NCBI GenBank assembly: GCA_947178125.1
Contig: CAMWXB010000001.1
Coordinates: 1-64,000 of the forward strand
Source: an uncultured Lachnospiraceae bacterium
GTDB taxonomy: Bacteria > Bacillota > Clostridia > Lachnospirales > Lachnospiraceae
Length of the DNA stretch: 64,000 nucleotides
Reading direction: 5' to 3'
The position numbers and the translations under genes are program-made. The notes beneath the pieces were generated by a model. It saw only the letters and a list, made by a program, of their open reading frames with translations, did not search any database and was not told the origin of the DNA. Positions 1 through 58,030 of the stretch are shown piece by piece. Position 1 is the first letter of the stretch, and every line of letters starts with the position of its first letter.

Positions 1-55
1 AGATATCTTTTTGGGGAAACGGGGCTAAAAAGTGCTATTTCCCGACAGCCCCTTC

Positions 56-141
56 AGGGTGAAGAAGACTTGCTATGCAAGTCGCAGAAGTTCTTGGCGA
101 AACAGCCCTTGCTGTGAGCCCTAGAACTTCTCTTCACCCTA
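56..141 (-). repeat. Family-1 structured intergenic element, copy A
   Basis: AGGGTGAAGA/TCTTCACCCT; GACTTGC-TAT-GCAAGTC; AGAAGTTCT/AGAACTTCT; ACAGC-CCTT-GCTGT; abuts the dnaJ stop. Confidence 0.9.
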
Positions 142-1299
142 TTTTCTGAATCTTTTCTTCGACTTCGGCTCTTCGCCGGAAGATGTCTGCTGTTTCGCAG
201 CATTTAATGTATTCCCTGTCTGCTCATCGAACTGTTTCAAAAGTTCTTTCGCCTCACGGGACAGCTTATCAGGTACCTGCACGACAAGCGTTACATAGTG
301 ATCTCCCCGTATGTCCTTATTGCGCAGGGATGGAACGCCTTTTCCTTTCAGGCGGACTTTCGTATCCGTCTGCGTCCCCGGCTTCACATCATAAATAACC
401 TTTCCGTCCACGGTATCGATCATGATCTCACCGCCGAGCGCCGCTACTGCAAAGGACATGGGAACTGTAGAATAGATATTCGTATCCTGTCTCTGGAAAA
501 TAGGATGACGGCCTACGATCACTTCCACCAGCAGATCGCCTCTCGGCCCGCCGTTCGTTCCCGGCTCTCCTTTATCTCTGATTCTGACACTCTGACCATT
601 ATCAATTCCGGCCGGAATGGATACCTGGATTTTTTTCTTATTGGCTATATATCCCGTTCCACGGCAATCCGGACATTTTTCCTTAATGACCTTACCGGTT
701 CCATGACAATCCGGACAGGTCTGCACATTTCTGACCGTTCCGAAGAAGGACTGCTGCGTAAATACGACCTGGCCTTTTCCACCGCACTTAGGACAGGTTT
801 CCGGGCTGGTTCCGGGCTTCGCACCGCTGCCCCGGCAAGTTGTACACTCATCCTTTAGTGTCAGTTCTATCTCTTTATCGACTCCAAAAATTGCTTCTTC
901 AAAAGTAATACGCACACTGGTGCGGATATTGGCACCCTTCATAGGGCCGTTGCTTCTGCTTCCCCGACGGCCGCCGCCGCCAAAGAAATCGCCAAAGATA
1001 TCGCCGAAGATATCGCCAAAATCCATGCTGTTGAAATCAAAACCGCCAAAGCCGCCGCCTGCTCCGCCTTCAAAGGCTGCATGACCGTACTGATCATACT
1101 GCCGCCTCTTTTCGGGGTCACTCAACACAGCGTAAGCTTCTGAGGCTTCTTTGAATTTCTTCTCAGCTTCCGCATCTCCCGGATTCATATCCGGATGATA
1201 TTTTTTTGCAAGTACTCTGTATGCTTTCTTAAGCGCCGCATCATCAGCATTCTTGTCAACGCCAAGAACTTCATAATAGTCTCTTTTTTGCTCTGCCAT
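139..1299 (-). CDS. dnaJ: Chaperone protein DnaJ
   Basis: J-domain with HPD, G/F-rich linker, four CxxCxGxG zinc repeats. Confidence 0.98.
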
Positions 1300-1403: not shown

Positions 1404-1555
1404 GGAAGAATGTCCTTCCAGGACATTCTTCCAAGCGAAACTTAGAAGTTCTTAGATGCCGTATTCCGGCATCTTAGAACTTCTTTTCGCTTTCGGCATT
1501 CTTAGAACTTCTTTTCGCTTTCGGCATTCCTCAGAACTTCTTTTCGCTTTTGACC

Positions 1556-1556
<1 letters not shown>
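1404..1556 (-). repeat. Family-1 structured intergenic element, copy F, with tandem duplication of its 5' half
   Basis: GGAAGAATGTCC/GGACATTCTTCC; AAGCGAAA/TTTCGCTT; AGAAGTTCTTAGATGCCG/CGGCATCTTAGAACTTCT; ~28-bp unit repeated. Confidence 0.9.
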
Positions 1557-3436
<1,880 letters not shown>

Positions 3437-3510: not shown

Positions 3511-3600
3511 CCGGAACAATGGCTGAAAGCCATTCTTTCAGCTAAAACCTGGAATTTCTTAGACATTGTTCTTTCATGTCTTAGAAATTCTTCTTAGCTT
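3511..3600 (-). repeat. Family-1 structured intergenic element, copy G
   Basis: AATGGC/GCCATT arm; AGCTAA/TTAGCT; GAATTTCTTAGACAT/ATGTCTTAGAAATTC; abuts the grpE stop. Confidence 0.8.
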
Positions 3601-4240
3601 AGTCTTTGACCACGGCTACCATACTATGCCGCACGACACTGCCGCGGTAAGTATATCCTTTCTGCAATTCCTGTGCAATAATGCCGGAACCGTATTCTTC
3701 ACTTTCTACCTGCATGACCGCATTGTGGAACTCCGGATCAAATTCCTGCCCAATCGCTTCAATCGGTTTCACATCGATCGCCTCTAACTCCGTCAAAAGC
3801 TGTTTGTAGATCATTTCCATTCCCTGTGCAAAAGCGCCGCCCTTATCGCTCTCCGGCACTGTCGCCAGACCTCTTTCGAAGTTATCCACGACGGGAAGGA
3901 TTTTCTCAATCACGCTTCTTGCTCCGGTTTCGAACATTGCTGATTTTTCTTTTTCCGTTCGTTTACGGAAATTATCAAATTCAGCCATCTGACGTTTTAC
4001 CCTGTCTTCCAGTTCGTCGATTTTCGTTTTCAACGCTTCCTGTTTCTTATCAACTTTTTCTTTTTTCTTTTTCTCTTTCTTTGCTGCCCTGGAATCCTCT
4101 TTCGCATCAGCGTTCTCTTCCGCTGCTTCTTCCACAGCCTCCGGAGAAGTTCCTTCCGCTTCCTCCTGCGCGTTCATTTCTTCCGTCTGCTCCTCTTTTT
4201 CCAGTTCCTTTTCCAATTCTCTCTCTGCCACAGTCTTCAT
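3599..4240 (-). CDS. grpE: Nucleotide exchange factor GrpE
   Basis: acidic N-terminus, coiled coil, GrpE C-terminal motif; operon position. Confidence 0.97.
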   Translation of the reverse strand: MKTVAERELEKELEKEEQTEEMNAQEEAEGTSPEAVEEAAEENADAKEDSRAAKKEKKKKEKVDKKQEALKTKIDELEDRVKRQMAEFDNFRKRTEKEKSAMFETGARSVIEKILPVVDNFERGLATVPESDKGGAFAQGMEMIYKQLLTELEAIDVKPIEAIGQEFDPEFHNAVMQVESEEYGSGIIAQELQKGYTYRGSVVRHSMVAVVKD

Positions 4241-13819: not shown

Positions 13820-15043
13820 TCATCTCCCTAATAAATACTCTACAATATTCTTCTGCCGGATACCGCCTCTGTTAAAGCCCATTAGCGAATCCATCGAAAG
13901 CACCATCTTCTCATAATTATCCGCAATCCGTTCCAGCGGACCGAATTCCCGTTCCATATTGTCCTCTGTCAAAAGATAACAGACTTGAATATAAATGCGT
14001 TCATCTGCCTTATTCGCAACAAAATCAATTTCCGCCGCATTCTGTTTTCCGACCGTTACCTGATATCCCCGGCGAAGCAGTTCCAAGTAAACAATATTTT
14101 CCAGTACAGCCCCAATATCATTATGCCGATATCCAAGCACTGCATACCGCAGCCCCAAATCCGACAAATAGTATTTCTCCTGTGTCTCTAACAGCCTTTT
14201 CCCTTTTATATCAAATCTCGGAACTTTGTATATCAAAAATGCGCTTTCCAAAAGTTTCAGATAATTATACACTGTTTCCGTACCGAGTTTCCGCCTTTGA
14301 TTTTTCAGAAAATCCGAAATTGTTTTTGCTGAAAAAATATTCCCGATATTGTCCATCAGGTATTGCGCAATACTTTCCAGAAGAGCCGTGTCCCTGACCT
14401 GATTTCTTCTAATCACATCCCTTAACAAAACGGAATGATAAATATCCAGAAGATATTGCGAAATCCGAATATCTTCCCATTTCATTTGATGGATTCCCGG
14501 CAGACCGCCGTATTTCAAATAATTGATAAAATTCTCCTGCTCCGACAACCCTGCTTCTTCATCATTTGCTTTGGTAAAATCCAGATATTCCGCAAAAGAC
14601 AACGGATATACCCGTATCTCAACATATCTGCCTGCAAGCAGCGTTGCCAGTTCTCCCGAAAGCAATTTCGCATTGGAACCTGTTACATAAATATCACAGT
14701 CAAAATCAACCCGAAACGAATTGACCGCTTTCTCCCACATCTCTACTTCCTGAACTTCATCGATTAAAATATATAATCTTCCATCCGCTTCCTTTGCCGC
14801 ATTGGTAACAGTTCCATACAGCGCTTTGTAATCCTTCCATTCCTCATAACGGAGAGATTCAAAATTCACATAAAAAATCCGTTCTTTCGGAACGCCTCTA
14901 TCGACCAGTTCATCCTGTATCTGCTTTAAGATGACACTCTTTCCGCATCTGCGCATACCCGTAATAACCTTAACAACAGGCTTATCAATAAAATCCCGTA
15001 TTTGATTCATATACTGCCGACGTACGATCATAACAATATCCAT
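13820..15043 (-). CDS. AAA ATPase with DUF4143 domain
   Basis: Walker A GMRRCGKS, Walker B LYILIDEVQ, DUF4143-like C-terminus; start possibly 15031. Confidence 0.92.
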   Translation of the reverse strand: MDIVMIVRRQYMNQIRDFIDKPVVKVITGMRRCGKSVILKQIQDELVDRGVPKERIFYVNFESLRYEEWKDYKALYGTVTNAAKEADGRLYILIDEVQEVEMWEKAVNSFRVDFDCDIYVTGSNAKLLSGELATLLAGRYVEIRVYPLSFAEYLDFTKANDEEAGLSEQENFINYLKYGGLPGIHQMKWEDIRISQYLLDIYHSVLLRDVIRRNQVRDTALLESIAQYLMDNIGNIFSAKTISDFLKNQRRKLGTETVYNYLKLLESAFLIYKVPRFDIKGKRLLETQEKYYLSDLGLRYAVLGYRHNDIGAVLENIVYLELLRRGYQVTVGKQNAAEIDFVANKADERIYIQVCYLLTEDNMEREFGPLERIADNYEKMVLSMDSLMGFNRGGIRQKNIVEYLLGR

Positions 15044-30870: not shown

Positions 30871-30947
30871 CCATGCCTTTCTCTCAACCTGCGATATTTG
30901 AGCCGCAGGCACAAATTCGCGGTTGAAAAATCTCTGATTTTTCAACC
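30871..30947 (-). repeat. Family-2 leader repeat (full copy)
   Basis: minus strand GGTTGAAAAATCAGAGATTTTTCAACCGCGAATTTGTGCCTGCGGCTCAAATATCGCAGGTTGAGAGAAAGGCATGG. Confidence 0.85.
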
Positions 30948-35000: not shown

Positions 35001-35069
35001 TCCGCTTTCCTTTCTCTCACTATTCTTACATACTCCTATATCATATCCATCATAACCCCCGGGAGAATG

Positions 35070-35176
35070 CCGCTTTTTAGGCATTTTCCAGCGTGAGAAA
35101 GACTTGCTTCACAAGTCGTAGAACTTCTTAGCGAAACAGTCTTTGCTGTGAGCCTTAGAACTTCTCTTCACACTAA
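35070..35176 (-). repeat. Family-1 structured intergenic element, copy B
   Basis: GAGAATGCC arm, AGCGTGAGAA/TCTTCACACT outer arms, GACTTG/CAAGTC hairpin, AGAACTTCT repeats. Confidence 0.8.
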
Positions 35177-35180
35177 TAAT

Positions 35181-35257
35181 CATGCCTTTCCCACAACCTG
35201 CGATATTTGCGCCGCAGGCACAAATTCGCGATTGAAAAATCTCTGATTTTTCAATCT
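35181..35257 (-). repeat. Family-2 leader repeat (full copy)
   Basis: minus strand ATTGAAAAATCAGAGATTTTTCAATCGCGAATTTGTGCCTGCGGCGCAAATATCGCAGGTTGTGGGAAAGGCATG. Confidence 0.85.
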
Positions 35258-48844: not shown

Positions 48845-48900
48845 TATATACCTCCTTATGATATCCTGCATTCCTACCCTTGCAACATCCCATCCATAAC

Positions 48901-48990
48901 TAGCGTGAGAAAGATTTGCCTTCGGCAAATCGTAGAACTTCTTCACGAAACAGCCCTTGCTGTGAGTGATTAGAAGTTCTTCTCACGCTA
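48901..48990 (-). repeat. Family-1 structured intergenic element, copy C
   Basis: outer arms TAGCGTGAGAA/TTCTCACGCTA; GATTTGCC-TTC-GGCAAATC; AGAACTTCT/AGAAGTTCT; ACAGC-CCTT-GCTGT. Confidence 0.9.
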
Positions 48991-49194
48991 TTGTATGCGC
49001 TGTTTATCCAGAAGTTCTTTTAACGCCTCGTCGCTGACGCTGATCCAGACGTCCTCTTCTTCCGCATTCAAGCCGAGATATTCCCGCAGTGTCATAGAGT
49101 CATCATGAAGCCCCCATTCCTGACTGTAATCGTCTATTTCTTCAAACTCCACTTCACCAGCGATATACTTTTCTTTAAAGGTCTTTTCCACCAT
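48988..49194 (-). CDS. Small hypothetical protein (68 aa)
   Basis: MVEKTFKEKYIAGEVEFEEIDDYSQEWGLHDDSMTLREYLGLNAEEEDVWISVSDEALKELLDKQRIQ. Confidence 0.7.
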   Translation of the reverse strand: MVEKTFKEKYIAGEVEFEEIDDYSQEWGLHDDSMTLREYLGLNAEEEDVWISVSDEALKELLDKQRIQ

Positions 49195-49336
49195 ATGCCC
49201 CTCTCTAATTCCTTCTATCAAAGAATGGCCCGCCAGAGACATTCTTTTGTGCAAAGGGGATTTGCGTACAAATTCTCTTCGCACTGGGTAGGAATTTCCT
49301 GTTTGGGAAATCTAAGTTCATTATACAAAGAGCATC

Positions 49337-53759: not shown

Positions 53760-53849
53760 TTGACCTCCATCCTTTGTAATCGTATCAATGCAATCATACC
53801 AGCTAAATATCTTCTCACTAACCTCCATGATTAATCTCAAAATCTCAAG

Positions 53850-53982
53850 ACAAACAAGTTTGTCAGGGAGAATGCCGTTTTTTAGGCATTCTCCAGGGTG
53901 AGAAAGATTTGCTCCGCAAATCGTAGAACTTCTTGGCGTTTCACCCTTTGGTGAAACGTCTTTAGAAGTTCTTCTCACCCTA
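53850..53982 (-). repeat. Family-1 structured intergenic element, copy D
   Basis: GACAAAC/GTTTGTC; GGAGAATGCC/GGCATTCTCC; AGGGTGAGAA/TTCTCACCCT; GATTTGC/GCAAATC; AGAACTTCT/AGAAGTTCT; CGTTTCACC/GGTGAAACG. Confidence 0.92.
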
Positions 53983-54675
53983 GTCGAGTCCTGCAATCTC
54001 ATCCACAGGCAGCGACATGACAACGCCCTGCGCCGGGCTCTGCATCCCGCATTTCTGACCGATTGCCTGCATGATCGCCAGCTTATCCTCTTTCTGCGCA
54101 AGGATGATAACGACTTCCCGTTCCTGCTGTACATGAATTTTCCAGAACTTCAACGATTCTTCATTCCCGACACGCCTGCTGTGAAATACCGTTCCGCCGG
54201 ATGCGCCCACAGGCCTTGCGGCATCCATGACTTCGGCGCTGTATCCCTGATTTACGATTGCCATGATCATACTGTATTGATATTCTTTCACTCTGACCTC
54301 ATTCCTTTCTTCAGGCGCCTGCCCGCTCTCTTCCCGCACTGCTTCCATCAACTGGACAATATGCCCGCTGCCGCCGGAAAGTGTAAGCGTAAAGGCTATT
54401 CCGGTATTGGGCATTCCAAGATGCAGTTTCTTCCGCATCTTTTTCAGTGTATCGTCCGCGCATGGCTTCGGCATCATGCTCATTAAAATCATCTTATCGA
54501 TACCGTCAAGGCCGAGCATATCCATTACTTCGCTGGTCGCCGTGCCCTGCGCATGAAAAAGGTGCTGCACGGCTATCTTTTCCTGTTTCAGCAAATCTTC
54601 CGCTTTCCTGACCAGTTTCGGTGTCGCAATGAGAAATAACATTCGGTAGGCCGACTTTTTACTATGACTCGTCAT
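53980..54675 (-). CDS. PII-like (GlnB/NRII-type) protein with two PII-like halves
   Basis: two repeats with MILMSMMPKP/GIAFTLTLSGGSG and YSMIMAIVNQGYSAEVMDAARPVGASGGTVFHSRR; adjacent to DUF1538. Confidence 0.82.
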   Translation of the reverse strand: MTSHSKKSAYRMLFLIATPKLVRKAEDLLKQEKIAVQHLFHAQGTATSEVMDMLGLDGIDKMILMSMMPKPCADDTLKKMRKKLHLGMPNTGIAFTLTLSGGSGHIVQLMEAVREESGQAPEERNEVRVKEYQYSMIMAIVNQGYSAEVMDAARPVGASGGTVFHSRRVGNEESLKFWKIHVQQEREVVIILAQKEDKLAIMQAIGQKCGMQSPAQGVVMSLPVDEIAGLD

Positions 54676-56206
54676 TTTCGTCCTCCTCCTCAAATTCAAA
54701 GATTTCATCCATAGCATCTAAGGAAACTGCTCCAGCTATTGCCGGCTGTGCCGCAGCCCTCATCTTGTACTGGTAGACAATACCCATAATCTGTACGGCA
54801 ATCAGCGGTGTGAGCGCAACCAACGCCACGACGCCGAAGGCATCCGTCATCACATTGCCGCCGACGGCATCACAGGCTCCGATGCAAAGCGGTAATAAGA
54901 AAGTCGTCGTCATCGGTCCGCTGGCAACCCCGCCGGAGTCAAAAGCAATACCGACGAACATCTTCGGAACAAATTTGGAGAAGACCAGTGCAATGATATA
55001 ACCGGGTATAATGATCCAATAAATCGGCAGCCCCGTCAGCACCCGCAGCATGGCCAGACCCACGCTGACAGATACGCCGATGGACAGACACCGGTTCATC
55101 TCTCTTGCCGATACCGCACCGTTTGTTACATCCTCGACTTGATGATTCAATACCTGAATGGCCGGCTCTGCCTTGACGATGTAGTAGCCAATCAGCATAC
55201 CGATCGGTATCAACAGCCATCTCCAGTCAGCCGCCGCAATATCTTTCCCAAGCGAAGAACCGACCGGCGCAAATCCCACATTAACGCCGCACAGGAAAAG
55301 AACAAGACCGATATATGTATAGCCGAATCCGACCAGCACACGCTTCACCTGACGCTGCTGGTAACGACGGCTCAGCAGCTGGAAGATTGCAAACACCGCC
55401 GCAACGGGAAGAAGCGAAATCAGCACTTCACGGATATAAGGCGGTGTACTGGTAAAGAACTCCCATACCACATCCCGCGTCGTCACAACGCTTGCCACTG
55501 TAGACGATGAATAATTTGCCTGCGTCGGATTATAAAAAGACCCCAGTATCAATACCGCCAGCACCGGGCCGACACTGGAAAGCGCTACCAGGCCGAAACT
55601 ATCGCTGGAGGCATTTCTATCGCCTCTGACCGATGCAAGACCGACACCCATTGCCATAATAAAAGGTACTGTCATCGGTCCCGTCGTTACACCGCCGGAG
55701 TCAAAAGCAACGGCCAGAAAATCCTTTTCAATAAAAGCGGACATTCCAATCAGAATAATATAGAGCACGATCAATATCGTTGAAAGATTCACCTGAAACA
55801 AAATTCTGCAGATTGCCATCGCCAGAAAAATTCCGACACCGACCGCAACCGTCACGATCAGAACAAAATTCGGAATAGACGGAACCTGCCCCGCCAGTAC
55901 CTGCAAATCCGGTTCAGACAATGTAATGATCGTTCCCATCGAAAAACCAATCAGACATACTAAAACTATATTCCGCGTTTTTGATATCTGCACACCGATA
56001 CCTTCTCCCAAAGGCGTCATTGACATTTCAGCGCCGAGTTGGAAAAAACCCATGCCGACGACCAGCATCAGTGCACCGACAATGAACATGACCATAGTTC
56101 CAAGTTCCACCGGCACGAGCAGGATACTGATCAGAAGAACAATACCCGTTATCGGCAGAACGGCCGAAAGAGACTCATAAATTTTTTCTTTAAGCTTCGG
56201 ATTCAA
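54662..56206 (-). CDS. DUF1538 domain-containing membrane protein (duplicated domain)
   Basis: internal duplication with AFDSGGVTTGPMTVPF and AFDSGGVASGPMTTTF; many TM helices. Confidence 0.9.
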   Translation of the reverse strand: MNPKLKEKIYESLSAVLPITGIVLLISILLVPVELGTMVMFIVGALMLVVGMGFFQLGAEMSMTPLGEGIGVQISKTRNIVLVCLIGFSMGTIITLSEPDLQVLAGQVPSIPNFVLIVTVAVGVGIFLAMAICRILFQVNLSTILIVLYIILIGMSAFIEKDFLAVAFDSGGVTTGPMTVPFIMAMGVGLASVRGDRNASSDSFGLVALSSVGPVLAVLILGSFYNPTQANYSSSTVASVVTTRDVVWEFFTSTPPYIREVLISLLPVAAVFAIFQLLSRRYQQRQVKRVLVGFGYTYIGLVLFLCGVNVGFAPVGSSLGKDIAAADWRWLLIPIGMLIGYYIVKAEPAIQVLNHQVEDVTNGAVSAREMNRCLSIGVSVSVGLAMLRVLTGLPIYWIIIPGYIIALVFSKFVPKMFVGIAFDSGGVASGPMTTTFLLPLCIGACDAVGGNVMTDAFGVVALVALTPLIAVQIMGIVYQYKMRAAAQPAIAGAVSLDAMDEIFEFEEEDENDES

Positions 56207-56469: not shown

Positions 56470-57900
56470 ATGGACAGAAGTAAAGAAATCAGAAAGTTGT
56501 GTGAGGAACAGAATATCCGTATGATCGATTTTAAAATGACGGATATCGACGGCCGCTGGCGTCATATTACGATTCCGGTAGAACGGTTCAATGAGGACAC
56601 TTTTACCTATGGCATCGGTTTTGACGGTTCCAATTACGGGTATGCGCCTGTTGAAAAAAGCGATATGGTATTTTTACCGGACCCGGATACCGCTTATGTG
56701 GATCCTTTTGCGGATGTACCGACGCTGACAATGTGCGGTAATGTATGCACGATCGGAAAGGGTGAAAATAAACCTTTTGACCAGTATCCGAAAAATGTGA
56801 GCCTGCGGGCGGTAGAATATATGAAAGAGAGCGGTATCGCCGACCGGATGATCATCGGGCCGGAATTTGAGTTCTATCTGTTAGACCGCGTTCGTTTTGA
56901 AGTGACCCCGCGCAGATGCGGCTACTGGGTTGACACAAGACAGGCGGACTGGAACTGCAATCTGGAAGTTCCGGGAAACAACGGTTATGAAGTGCCGGCA
57001 AAAGGCGGTTATCATGTGGCAGCACCGCAGGATGTCGGATATGACCTGCGAAGCCGTATGTGTATGGCAATGGAGGACTGGGGTATCAAAGTAAAATACC
57101 ATCACCATGAAGTAGGCGGCCCCGGCCAGATGGAAATCGAGGTCGAACTTGCAGATATGCCGGAAATGGCCGACAATACGATGATCATCAAATATATCAT
57201 TAAAAATATGGCGGCGCAGGAAGGCAAGACAGCCACTTTCATGCCGAAGCCGATCTATCAGGAAGCCGGAAACGGCCTGCATGTACATATGCTGTTAATG
57301 AAAGACGGCAAGCCGCTGTTCTATGATGAGAACGGTTATTCCGGCCTCAGCCGCACGGCACATTATTTTATCGGCGGCCTGTTGAAACATATCGCATCCC
57401 TGTGTGCATTCACCAATCCGTCCACGAACTCTTTCAAACGTCTCGTACCGGGATATGAAGCGCCTGTCACAGTCGGCTACGCAACTTCCAACCGCAGTGC
57501 GGTCATCCGCATTCCGGCCTATGCGAAGTCCCCGGAAGCGAAAAGATTCGAACTGCGCAACCCTGACGCGACGGCTAATCCTTATTATGCTTATGCGGCA
57601 ATTCTGATGGCGGGACTGGATGGTATCGAGAATCAGATAGACCCTGCTGAGAATGGCTGGGGGCCTTATGATTTCAATCTTTATACACTTTCCGAAGAAG
57701 AACAGAAAAAAATCAAAGGACTGCCGAAATCGCTGGGCGAAGCGTTAGATGCACTGGAGGCCGACCACGATTATCTGACAAAAGGCGGCGTTTTCCCGCA
57801 GCGGCTCATTGATGTGTGGGTAGCGCGTAAACGCGAAGAGCTGAAAAAGATGGAACAGATTCCGAATCCGGCTGAATTTAAGGCGTATTATGATCTCTAA
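56470..57900 (+). CDS. glnA: Glutamine synthetase (type I)
   Basis: GFDGSNYGYAPVEKSDMVFLPD; NGLHVHMLL; RSAVIRIPA. Confidence 0.97.
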   Translation: MDRSKEIRKLCEEQNIRMIDFKMTDIDGRWRHITIPVERFNEDTFTYGIGFDGSNYGYAPVEKSDMVFLPDPDTAYVDPFADVPTLTMCGNVCTIGKGENKPFDQYPKNVSLRAVEYMKESGIADRMIIGPEFEFYLLDRVRFEVTPRRCGYWVDTRQADWNCNLEVPGNNGYEVPAKGGYHVAAPQDVGYDLRSRMCMAMEDWGIKVKYHHHEVGGPGQMEIEVELADMPEMADNTMIIKYIIKNMAAQEGKTATFMPKPIYQEAGNGLHVHMLLMKDGKPLFYDENGYSGLSRTAHYFIGGLLKHIASLCAFTNPSTNSFKRLVPGYEAPVTVGYATSNRSAVIRIPAYAKSPEAKRFELRNPDATANPYYAYAAILMAGLDGIENQIDPAENGWGPYDFNLYTLSEEEQKKIKGLPKSLGEALDALEADHDYLTKGGVFPQRLIDVWVARKREELKKMEQIPNPAEFKAYYDL

Positions 57901-58030
57901 AAGCGCGAGAAGAAGTTCTAAAGACGTCCCGCCATTGGACGGGACGTCAAGAACTTCTACGATTTGTTGTGCAAATTTTGCACAGCAAATCTTTCTCGCG
58001 CAGGAGAATGCCCGTCAGGGCATTCTCCAT
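57901..58030 (+). repeat. Family-1 structured intergenic element, copy E
   Basis: GCGCGAGAA/TTCTCGCGC; AGAAGTTCT/AGAACTTCT; GACGTCCCG/CGGGACGTC; GATTTG/CAAATC; GGAGAATGCCC/GGGCATTCTCC. Confidence 0.92.

Follow-up and report, generated by a model that had tools for sequence, protein, structure and literature searches.

A dispersed branched-hairpin repeat inserted in sense at stop codons of a Lachnospiraceae genome, a candidate mobile boundary element of operon mRNAs

The 64,000-nt stretch of DNA analysed here (the window), which opens a contig of an uncultured Lachnospiraceae bacterium (genome G000), raises the question why the same branched hairpin recurs along it. An earlier note on this DNA had listed at least seven copies and had offered two readings, an RNA structure acting at 3' untranslated regions or operon junctions and a mobile element that keeps its fold. 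The repeat, termed family 1 in this study, is dispersed, measures approximately 95-140 nt and shows the same branched hairpin fold in each copy. Its core motif is found 14 times in the window, where 1.2 occurrences would be expected, and none of 100 shuffles contained as many. Six of the seven listed copies were matched by a covariance model (R1) built from an alignment of 32 copies of G000 (A1); the seventh (3511-3600) was not matched at E<=1e-5. The copy listed at 1404-1556 proved to be composite, with one element at 1404-1492 and a remainder of partial 28-nt tandem repeats of the 5' arm. One of the three 28-nt units, which together span 1472-1556, overlaps this element, and two stand without their partner strands. 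Tandem copies of the whole element are also found (L009 1507-1804, L195, L196, L117 and L103), and in L009 three of them follow each other with a 113-nt period. For the genome, a number of seven is strongly too low, as R1 detects at least 145 places in G000 at E<0.01 among 150 candidates scored. A BLAST search of the same genome gave 43 matches, and an exact core pattern was found at 88 places (one in the reversed control), including approximately ten sites absent from the model's list of at least 145. Searches of Rfam at gathering and relaxed thresholds returned nothing relevant to family 1, thus the match to an existing Rfam family that the earlier note had envisaged was not found. The copies in the window and the parts of the best-scoring one are listed in Table 1.

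Table 1. Family 1 copies in the window, with the parts of the best-scoring copy
Feature	Position	Strand	Remark
Family 1, best-scoring copy	53866..53980	- (sense strand = minus)	R1 match, 131.8 bits
TAG stop of upstream gene 53980..54717	53980..53982	-	G is the element's first base
Outer stem, 5' strand GGGTGAGA	53973..53980	-	
Arm 1, 5' strand AGAACTTCT	53964..53972	-	
Inner hairpin at arm 1 end	53935..53960	-	
Arm 1, 3' strand AGAAGTTCT	53925..53933	-	
Side hairpin GATTTGC/GCAAATC	53906..53922	-	
Outer stem, 3' strand TCTCACCC	53896..53903	-	
Trailing hairpin GGAGAATGCC/GGCATTCTCC	53867..53894	-	Integral, significant covariation, no U-tract behind
Extra short hairpin GACAAACTTGTTTGTC	53849..53864	-	Common to a subset of copies
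Family 1 copy behind TAA (57898-57900) of plus-strand gene 56470..57900	57903..58029	+	
Family 1 copy without trailing hairpin, starts at TAG of gene 48988..49284	48897..48988	-	TA at both sides
Family 1 copy inserted behind second-family repeat (GGCATGATTATTA|GTG)	35061..35173	-	
Family 1 copy at TAG of gene 139..1299	27..139	-	
Family 1 copy without side hairpin	1404..1492	-	50 bits
Three tandem 28-nt units of 5' outer strand and arm 1, end at stop of gene 1556..3424	1472..1556	-	
Degenerate copy without side hairpin, at stop of gene 3599..4240	3511..3600	-	Similar fold, z -3.5; model match not significant

In the fold, an outer stem encloses an AGAASTTCT arm, which ends in an inner hairpin, and a side hairpin that is optional; the trailing hairpin is an integral part. 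The predicted energy of the fold is low (median -56 kcal/mol), and the copies in the window have folding z-scores of -2.5 to -13.3. The inner arm occurs in several types within A1, and the side hairpin is missing in some copies of G000 and in copies of several other genera. Copies of G409 and G399 (e.g. L194-L196 and L202) are approximately 95 nt long and lack the side hairpin, therefore some lineages may have acquired the three-way junction later. That the paired arms change together between copies, as had been noted from the window, was borne out in the larger alignment. In A1, 93.2% of the cells are paired and 28 pairs show double changes, values that none of 500 shuffles reached, and the pairing signal is lost when the partners are slid. 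An alignment of 59 distinct copies from other genomes (A3) gave 93.4% paired cells, with double changes in 40 of its 45 pairs. Covariation was also significant in a tree-aware test, an R-scape-like script of our own in which substitutions are redistributed on a FastTree phylogeny and scored by an APC-corrected G statistic: 19 of 44 pairs covaried significantly in G000 and 27 of 44 in the other genomes, against none of 6061 non-pairs. Unpaired junctions and internal loops are conserved among copies, and an A-C mismatch recurs in the inner arm.

The position of the copies is strongly tied to genes. In the gene calls around 138 copies of G000, elements between co-directional genes lie in sense in 114 cases and antisense in three, at least one of the antisense calls being doubtful. 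In other genomes the corresponding numbers are 41 and two; the random orientation to genes that the earlier note had considered is thus not what is found. Within the window, the copy at 57903-58029 is oriented with its plus-strand gene, though the region is mostly minus. Copies are oriented with the local gene, and both orientations occur on 11 of 35 contigs with multiple copies, which makes a replication-strand bias an unlikely cause of orientation. With genes placed by a codon-score script of our own, by which distances at single copies may be wrong (e.g. at C97:8896 and C19:36457), the element starts between -30 and +4 of the upstream gene's end in 92 of 124 copies that have an upstream gene on the same strand. 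The largest class of starts (46 copies) is TA|G, in which the first G of the element, right of the bar, completes the stop codon. In the other stop-linked copies the stop codon is part of the element (GGGTGA, TTCTAA), or the element begins 0-4 nt past TAA or TAG. TAG makes up 51 of 95 stops at family 1 copies against a background of 23%. Among the stops that precede the element, TGA accounts for 1 of 31. An A stands directly before the element in 134 of 137 copies, and in 89 of the 137 the preceding dinucleotide is TA; there is no constant TA at the 3' side, and a constant target duplication was not seen there.

A second class of copies starts approximately one base past a TATAAT -10 box. A perfect TATAAT at -7 to -2 was found in 8 of 43 copies not linked to a stop, against 4 of 1542 control positions. 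The placement at gene 3' ends that had been described for the window therefore holds for most copies, and a minority starts directly past a -10 box instead; of the listed copies, the one at 35061 adjoins another repeat and not a stop codon. The genes on both flanks are functionally mixed, hence no regulatory theme emerges, and no functional theme was found among the neighbours beyond nine permeases in 93 upstream genes. At L121 and L120 (C14:41399-50497), two bacterial microcompartment (BMC) shell genes each have a family 1 element behind them. In L190 of a related genome, a T-box leader below threshold (905-1159, 73.8 bits, cut-off 93) lies near a family 1 copy.

Stable hairpins right behind stop codons and in sense are also what intrinsic terminators or attenuators multiplied in the genome would look like. 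We consider this explanation quite improbable: the fraction of T in the first 8 nt past the trailing hairpin is 0.25, which agrees with the earlier remark that consistent U-tracts are lacking, most copies lie between co-directional genes whose spacer in element-free relatives is mostly just 19-61 nt, and some copies are found upstream of genes, behind a promoter.

Comparison with related genomes shows how the copies came to their sites. Approximately ten sites that are filled in G000 are empty in relatives (G006 and some other contigs), and one is filled only in the relative; the elements were consequently mobile. At the empty orthologous sites the intergenic spacers are short and the protein ends are in most cases the same, as with GAC TAG|GGC in G000 and GAC TAA in a relative. 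At the compared sites gene order is kept, and the element and other repeats account for most of the difference at filled sites. This speaks against an attC-like recombination site for gene capture. Sites of the attC type likewise form a fold, overlap a stop codon and have sense orientation, thus the position and orientation of family 1 resemble those of cassette-borne attC sites. However, the family 1 copies are dispersed and form no cassette arrays, and on inspection an R-box GTTRRRY is not apparent in the conserved stems. Such an origin is extremely improbable.

The distribution of the family is patchy. Copies occur in 29 of 36 other genomes of the same genus and, in a sample of the family, in 17 of 397 genomes from approximately 14 genera. 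None were found in 24 genomes of other families in the order, and in a sample of the phylum no genome matched apart from G000. The named GTDB contigs that match a strict pattern are MAGs. Most bear the title Lachnospiraceae, and the rest are labelled Clostridium, Ruminococcus, Roseburia, Bacillus or uncultured bacterium. Phage, plasmid and viral contigs contained no copies at the sensitivity used.

Which enzyme might have moved the element was addressed by domain searches. The Y1 transposase domain (PF01797) had no match in G000, which is 93% complete, nor in the relatives G002, G006 and G016 with more than 20 copies each, and the IS630-type transposase domain (DDE_3) is absent from G000. The possible membership in an insertion-sequence family raised by the earlier note was thus followed through the domains typical of IS200/IS605 and IS630 only, both of which are absent from G000. 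Two reverse transcriptases are present in G000 and none in the copy-rich relatives G002 and G006. Neither Y1, nor reverse transcriptase, nor an IS630-type transposase explains the copy number. The same searches bear on REP/BIME elements moved by a RAYT-type Y1 tyrosine transposase. These are likewise dispersed palindromic repeats near gene 3' ends and occur in tandem, but the transposase is missing in all four genomes, and a REP unit has 20-40 bp with a GTAG or CGTC end tag (PMC3733652) while family 1 has approximately 110 nt, begins at TA|G and is strongly oriented. That family 1 belongs to this group appears very improbable.

A more speculative route would make insertion itself depend on the termination of transcription or translation. 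Entry would always be in sense, either between bases 2 and 3 of the stop codon or into the strand exposed at a -10 box, and the element would spread as folded RNA or as a single-stranded DNA hairpin without a known transposase. It would then represent a new class of mobile elements, and no fewer than two repeat families of G000, unrelated in structure, would share this route. We regard this scenario as unlikely.

The reading towards which we lean, if only slightly, is that family 1 is a non-autonomous mobile element that is co-transcribed as a structure in the mRNA and forms a boundary between operon genes. The two readings offered at the outset would thereby hold together, supported by empty orthologous sites, sense orientation, stop anchoring and kept pairing. 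Since the element stands mostly at stop codons and nearly always in the direction of transcription, it probably acts within mRNAs as a gene boundary. In the proposed model, the element would spread in the chromosome by inserting in transcript orientation at the TA of a stop codon between operon genes or, alternatively, next to a -10 box at a transcript start. Each copy would be co-transcribed and would form a very stable branched structure, either at the boundary between two cistrons or at a leader's 5' end. There, the structure might block 3' exonucleases behind the upstream cistron and so protect the upstream 3' end, probably mark a processing site for a double-strand or structure-sensitive endonuclease, and shield the 5' end of the downstream RNA. 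Potentially, it might also loosen translational coupling, so that operon neighbours reach different levels. In a clostridial operon, intergenic stem-loops set RNA processing and stoichiometry (PMC10311766), and ERIC, NEMIS and possibly YPAL repeats act on mRNA (PMC2229807). Some points count against this reading. In the TATAAT class the expected transcription start would lie inside the outer stem, therefore the outer stem might not be fully transcribed there. The flanking genes show no regulatory theme, and as elements are readily gained and lost, few copies can be essential.

The chief rival of the mRNA-boundary reading is that family 1 is purely selfish DNA. Here, the hairpins would matter as folded single-stranded DNA in transposition, covariation would stem from recognition by a transposase and from correction of palindromes by template switching, and the sense orientation would result from insertion into single-stranded non-template DNA during transcription, with no RNA function at all. 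At four independent sites filled in both genomes compared, 28 pairs have changed on both sides and are still paired, three have changed on one side and are still paired, and approximately nine are broken. In one shared site linked to a promoter the -10 region is conserved, and half of the outer-stem pairs differ, each of them compensated. Together with sense orientation and stop anchoring, this kept pairing fits a co-transcribed RNA. However, G-U pairs are rare: in the outer stem, arm 1 and the side stem they make up approximately 1-2% of cells. In these stems pooled, they are just slightly more common than A-C (53 versus 31, p=0.02), and in all helices together A-C exceeds G-U. Low G-U, strict Watson-Crick pairing and few intermediates count against an mRNA boundary, and template switching at palindromic DNA would give the same picture. 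Published work names template switching among the possible origins of compensatory changes (PMC8794818). This mechanism would also suit one orthologous element pair that differs only by a single double change from C-G to T-A between flanks of 91-96% identity, and insertion at TA and at the -10 box fits an exposed non-template strand. On the other hand, indiscriminate correction would erase the conserved junctions and internal loops and the recurrent A-C mismatch described above, a single-strand (Y1) transposase was not found in G000, and the anchoring at stops looks tighter than TA targeting and avoidance of genes would predict. Taken together, selfish DNA is a serious explanation, and in our view a somewhat unlikely one. 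As template switching could yield the same covariation, an RNA function is no more than likely. It is sense placement at cistron boundaries and in leaders, kept pairing, the missing U-tract and the precedents named above from which we infer that family 1 may act as RNA.

Several known systems resemble family 1 in part. YPAL (RU-2) of Yersinia is said to be located downstream of stop codons, as De Gregorio reportedly found in 2006. With approximately 168 bp it is also mobile by empty-site comparison and may influence the stability of the upstream transcript; it differs by a target duplication of 3-26 bp and the lack of TA ends, and the consulted parts of the source describe no multi-branched covarying fold for it (PMC2229807). 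In the same source (PMC2229807), ERIC (IRU, RU-1) of enterobacteria comes close to family 1, being non-autonomous with approximately 127 bp, TA termini, a co-transcribed hairpin and an orientation-dependent effect on mRNA stability. However, ERIC as described there has terminal inverted repeats and a simpler stem-loop, whereas family 1 has a three-way junction and a trailing hairpin, variable covarying stems and a near-absolute sense orientation at the stop. Family 1 is set apart from ERIC and YPAL by these descriptions, as far as they extend. The NEMIS (Correia) repeats of Neisseria are dispersed and flanked by TA, and their RNA stem-loops are processed by RNase III; unlike family 1 they have terminal inverted repeats of 24 bp, and no stop-codon anchoring is described in the parts of the source at hand (PMC2229807). 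At the boundaries of the clostridial cip-cel operon of Ruminiclostridium, stem-loops mark the sites of endonuclease cleavage and make the products more stable (PMC10311766). Those are structures of a single operon, whereas family 1 is a dispersed mobile family. REP, REPIN and BIME sequences share the palindromic, dispersed nature and the location mostly downstream of genes, but they are short, mobilised by RAYT and tagged with GTAG or CGTC, while the family 1 unit starts with (A/C)TA|G. Finally, family 1 has empty and filled orthologous sites like the TA-target MITEs (ERIC, NEMIS, RUP), which possess fixed terminal inverted repeats shared with an autonomous IS of the IS630 type; the outer stems of family 1 vary, and its host G000 lacks DDE_3. 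We read family 1 as functionally similar to ERIC, YPAL and NEMIS but as a separate family. To our knowledge of the literature searched, the combination of a multi-branched covarying fold, a stop-codon register and near-absolute sense orientation is new.

Family 1 provides a natural replicated experiment, with more than 100 loci in one species and other sets in its relatives, most of them exactly at an operon stop codon. What a strong structure does at a cistron boundary can be measured directly in Firmicutes by setting operons that carry the element against their empty orthologues. Furthermore, an insertion that occurs in sense only and is anchored at stops raises the question of how such elements move.

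Apart from family 1, a second dispersed hairpin family was observed. It reads TA|G(A/G)TTGAAAAATCNNNGATTTTTCAA(C/T)C, then GCGAATTTGTGCC...GGTTGAGAGAAAGGCATGG...TTA, and is present in the window at 30921-30947 and 35230-35256 (minus sense). Its pattern was found at no fewer than 70 places in G000 and at none in the reversed control. Like family 1 it starts at TA|G, in several cases at a stop codon and in sense. It is unrelated to family 1 and occupies, in a relative, the orthologous stop codon where G000 has family 1, at C98:5688 (G000 versus G006) and at C41:31124 (G000 versus L078). A further motif, AGGTTGAGAGAAAGGCATGG (minus sense), occurs by itself or makes up the 3' part of a second-family repeat, and its occurrences in the window at 15040, 30871, 48769, 50527 and 61358 lie at or just upstream of predicted gene starts.
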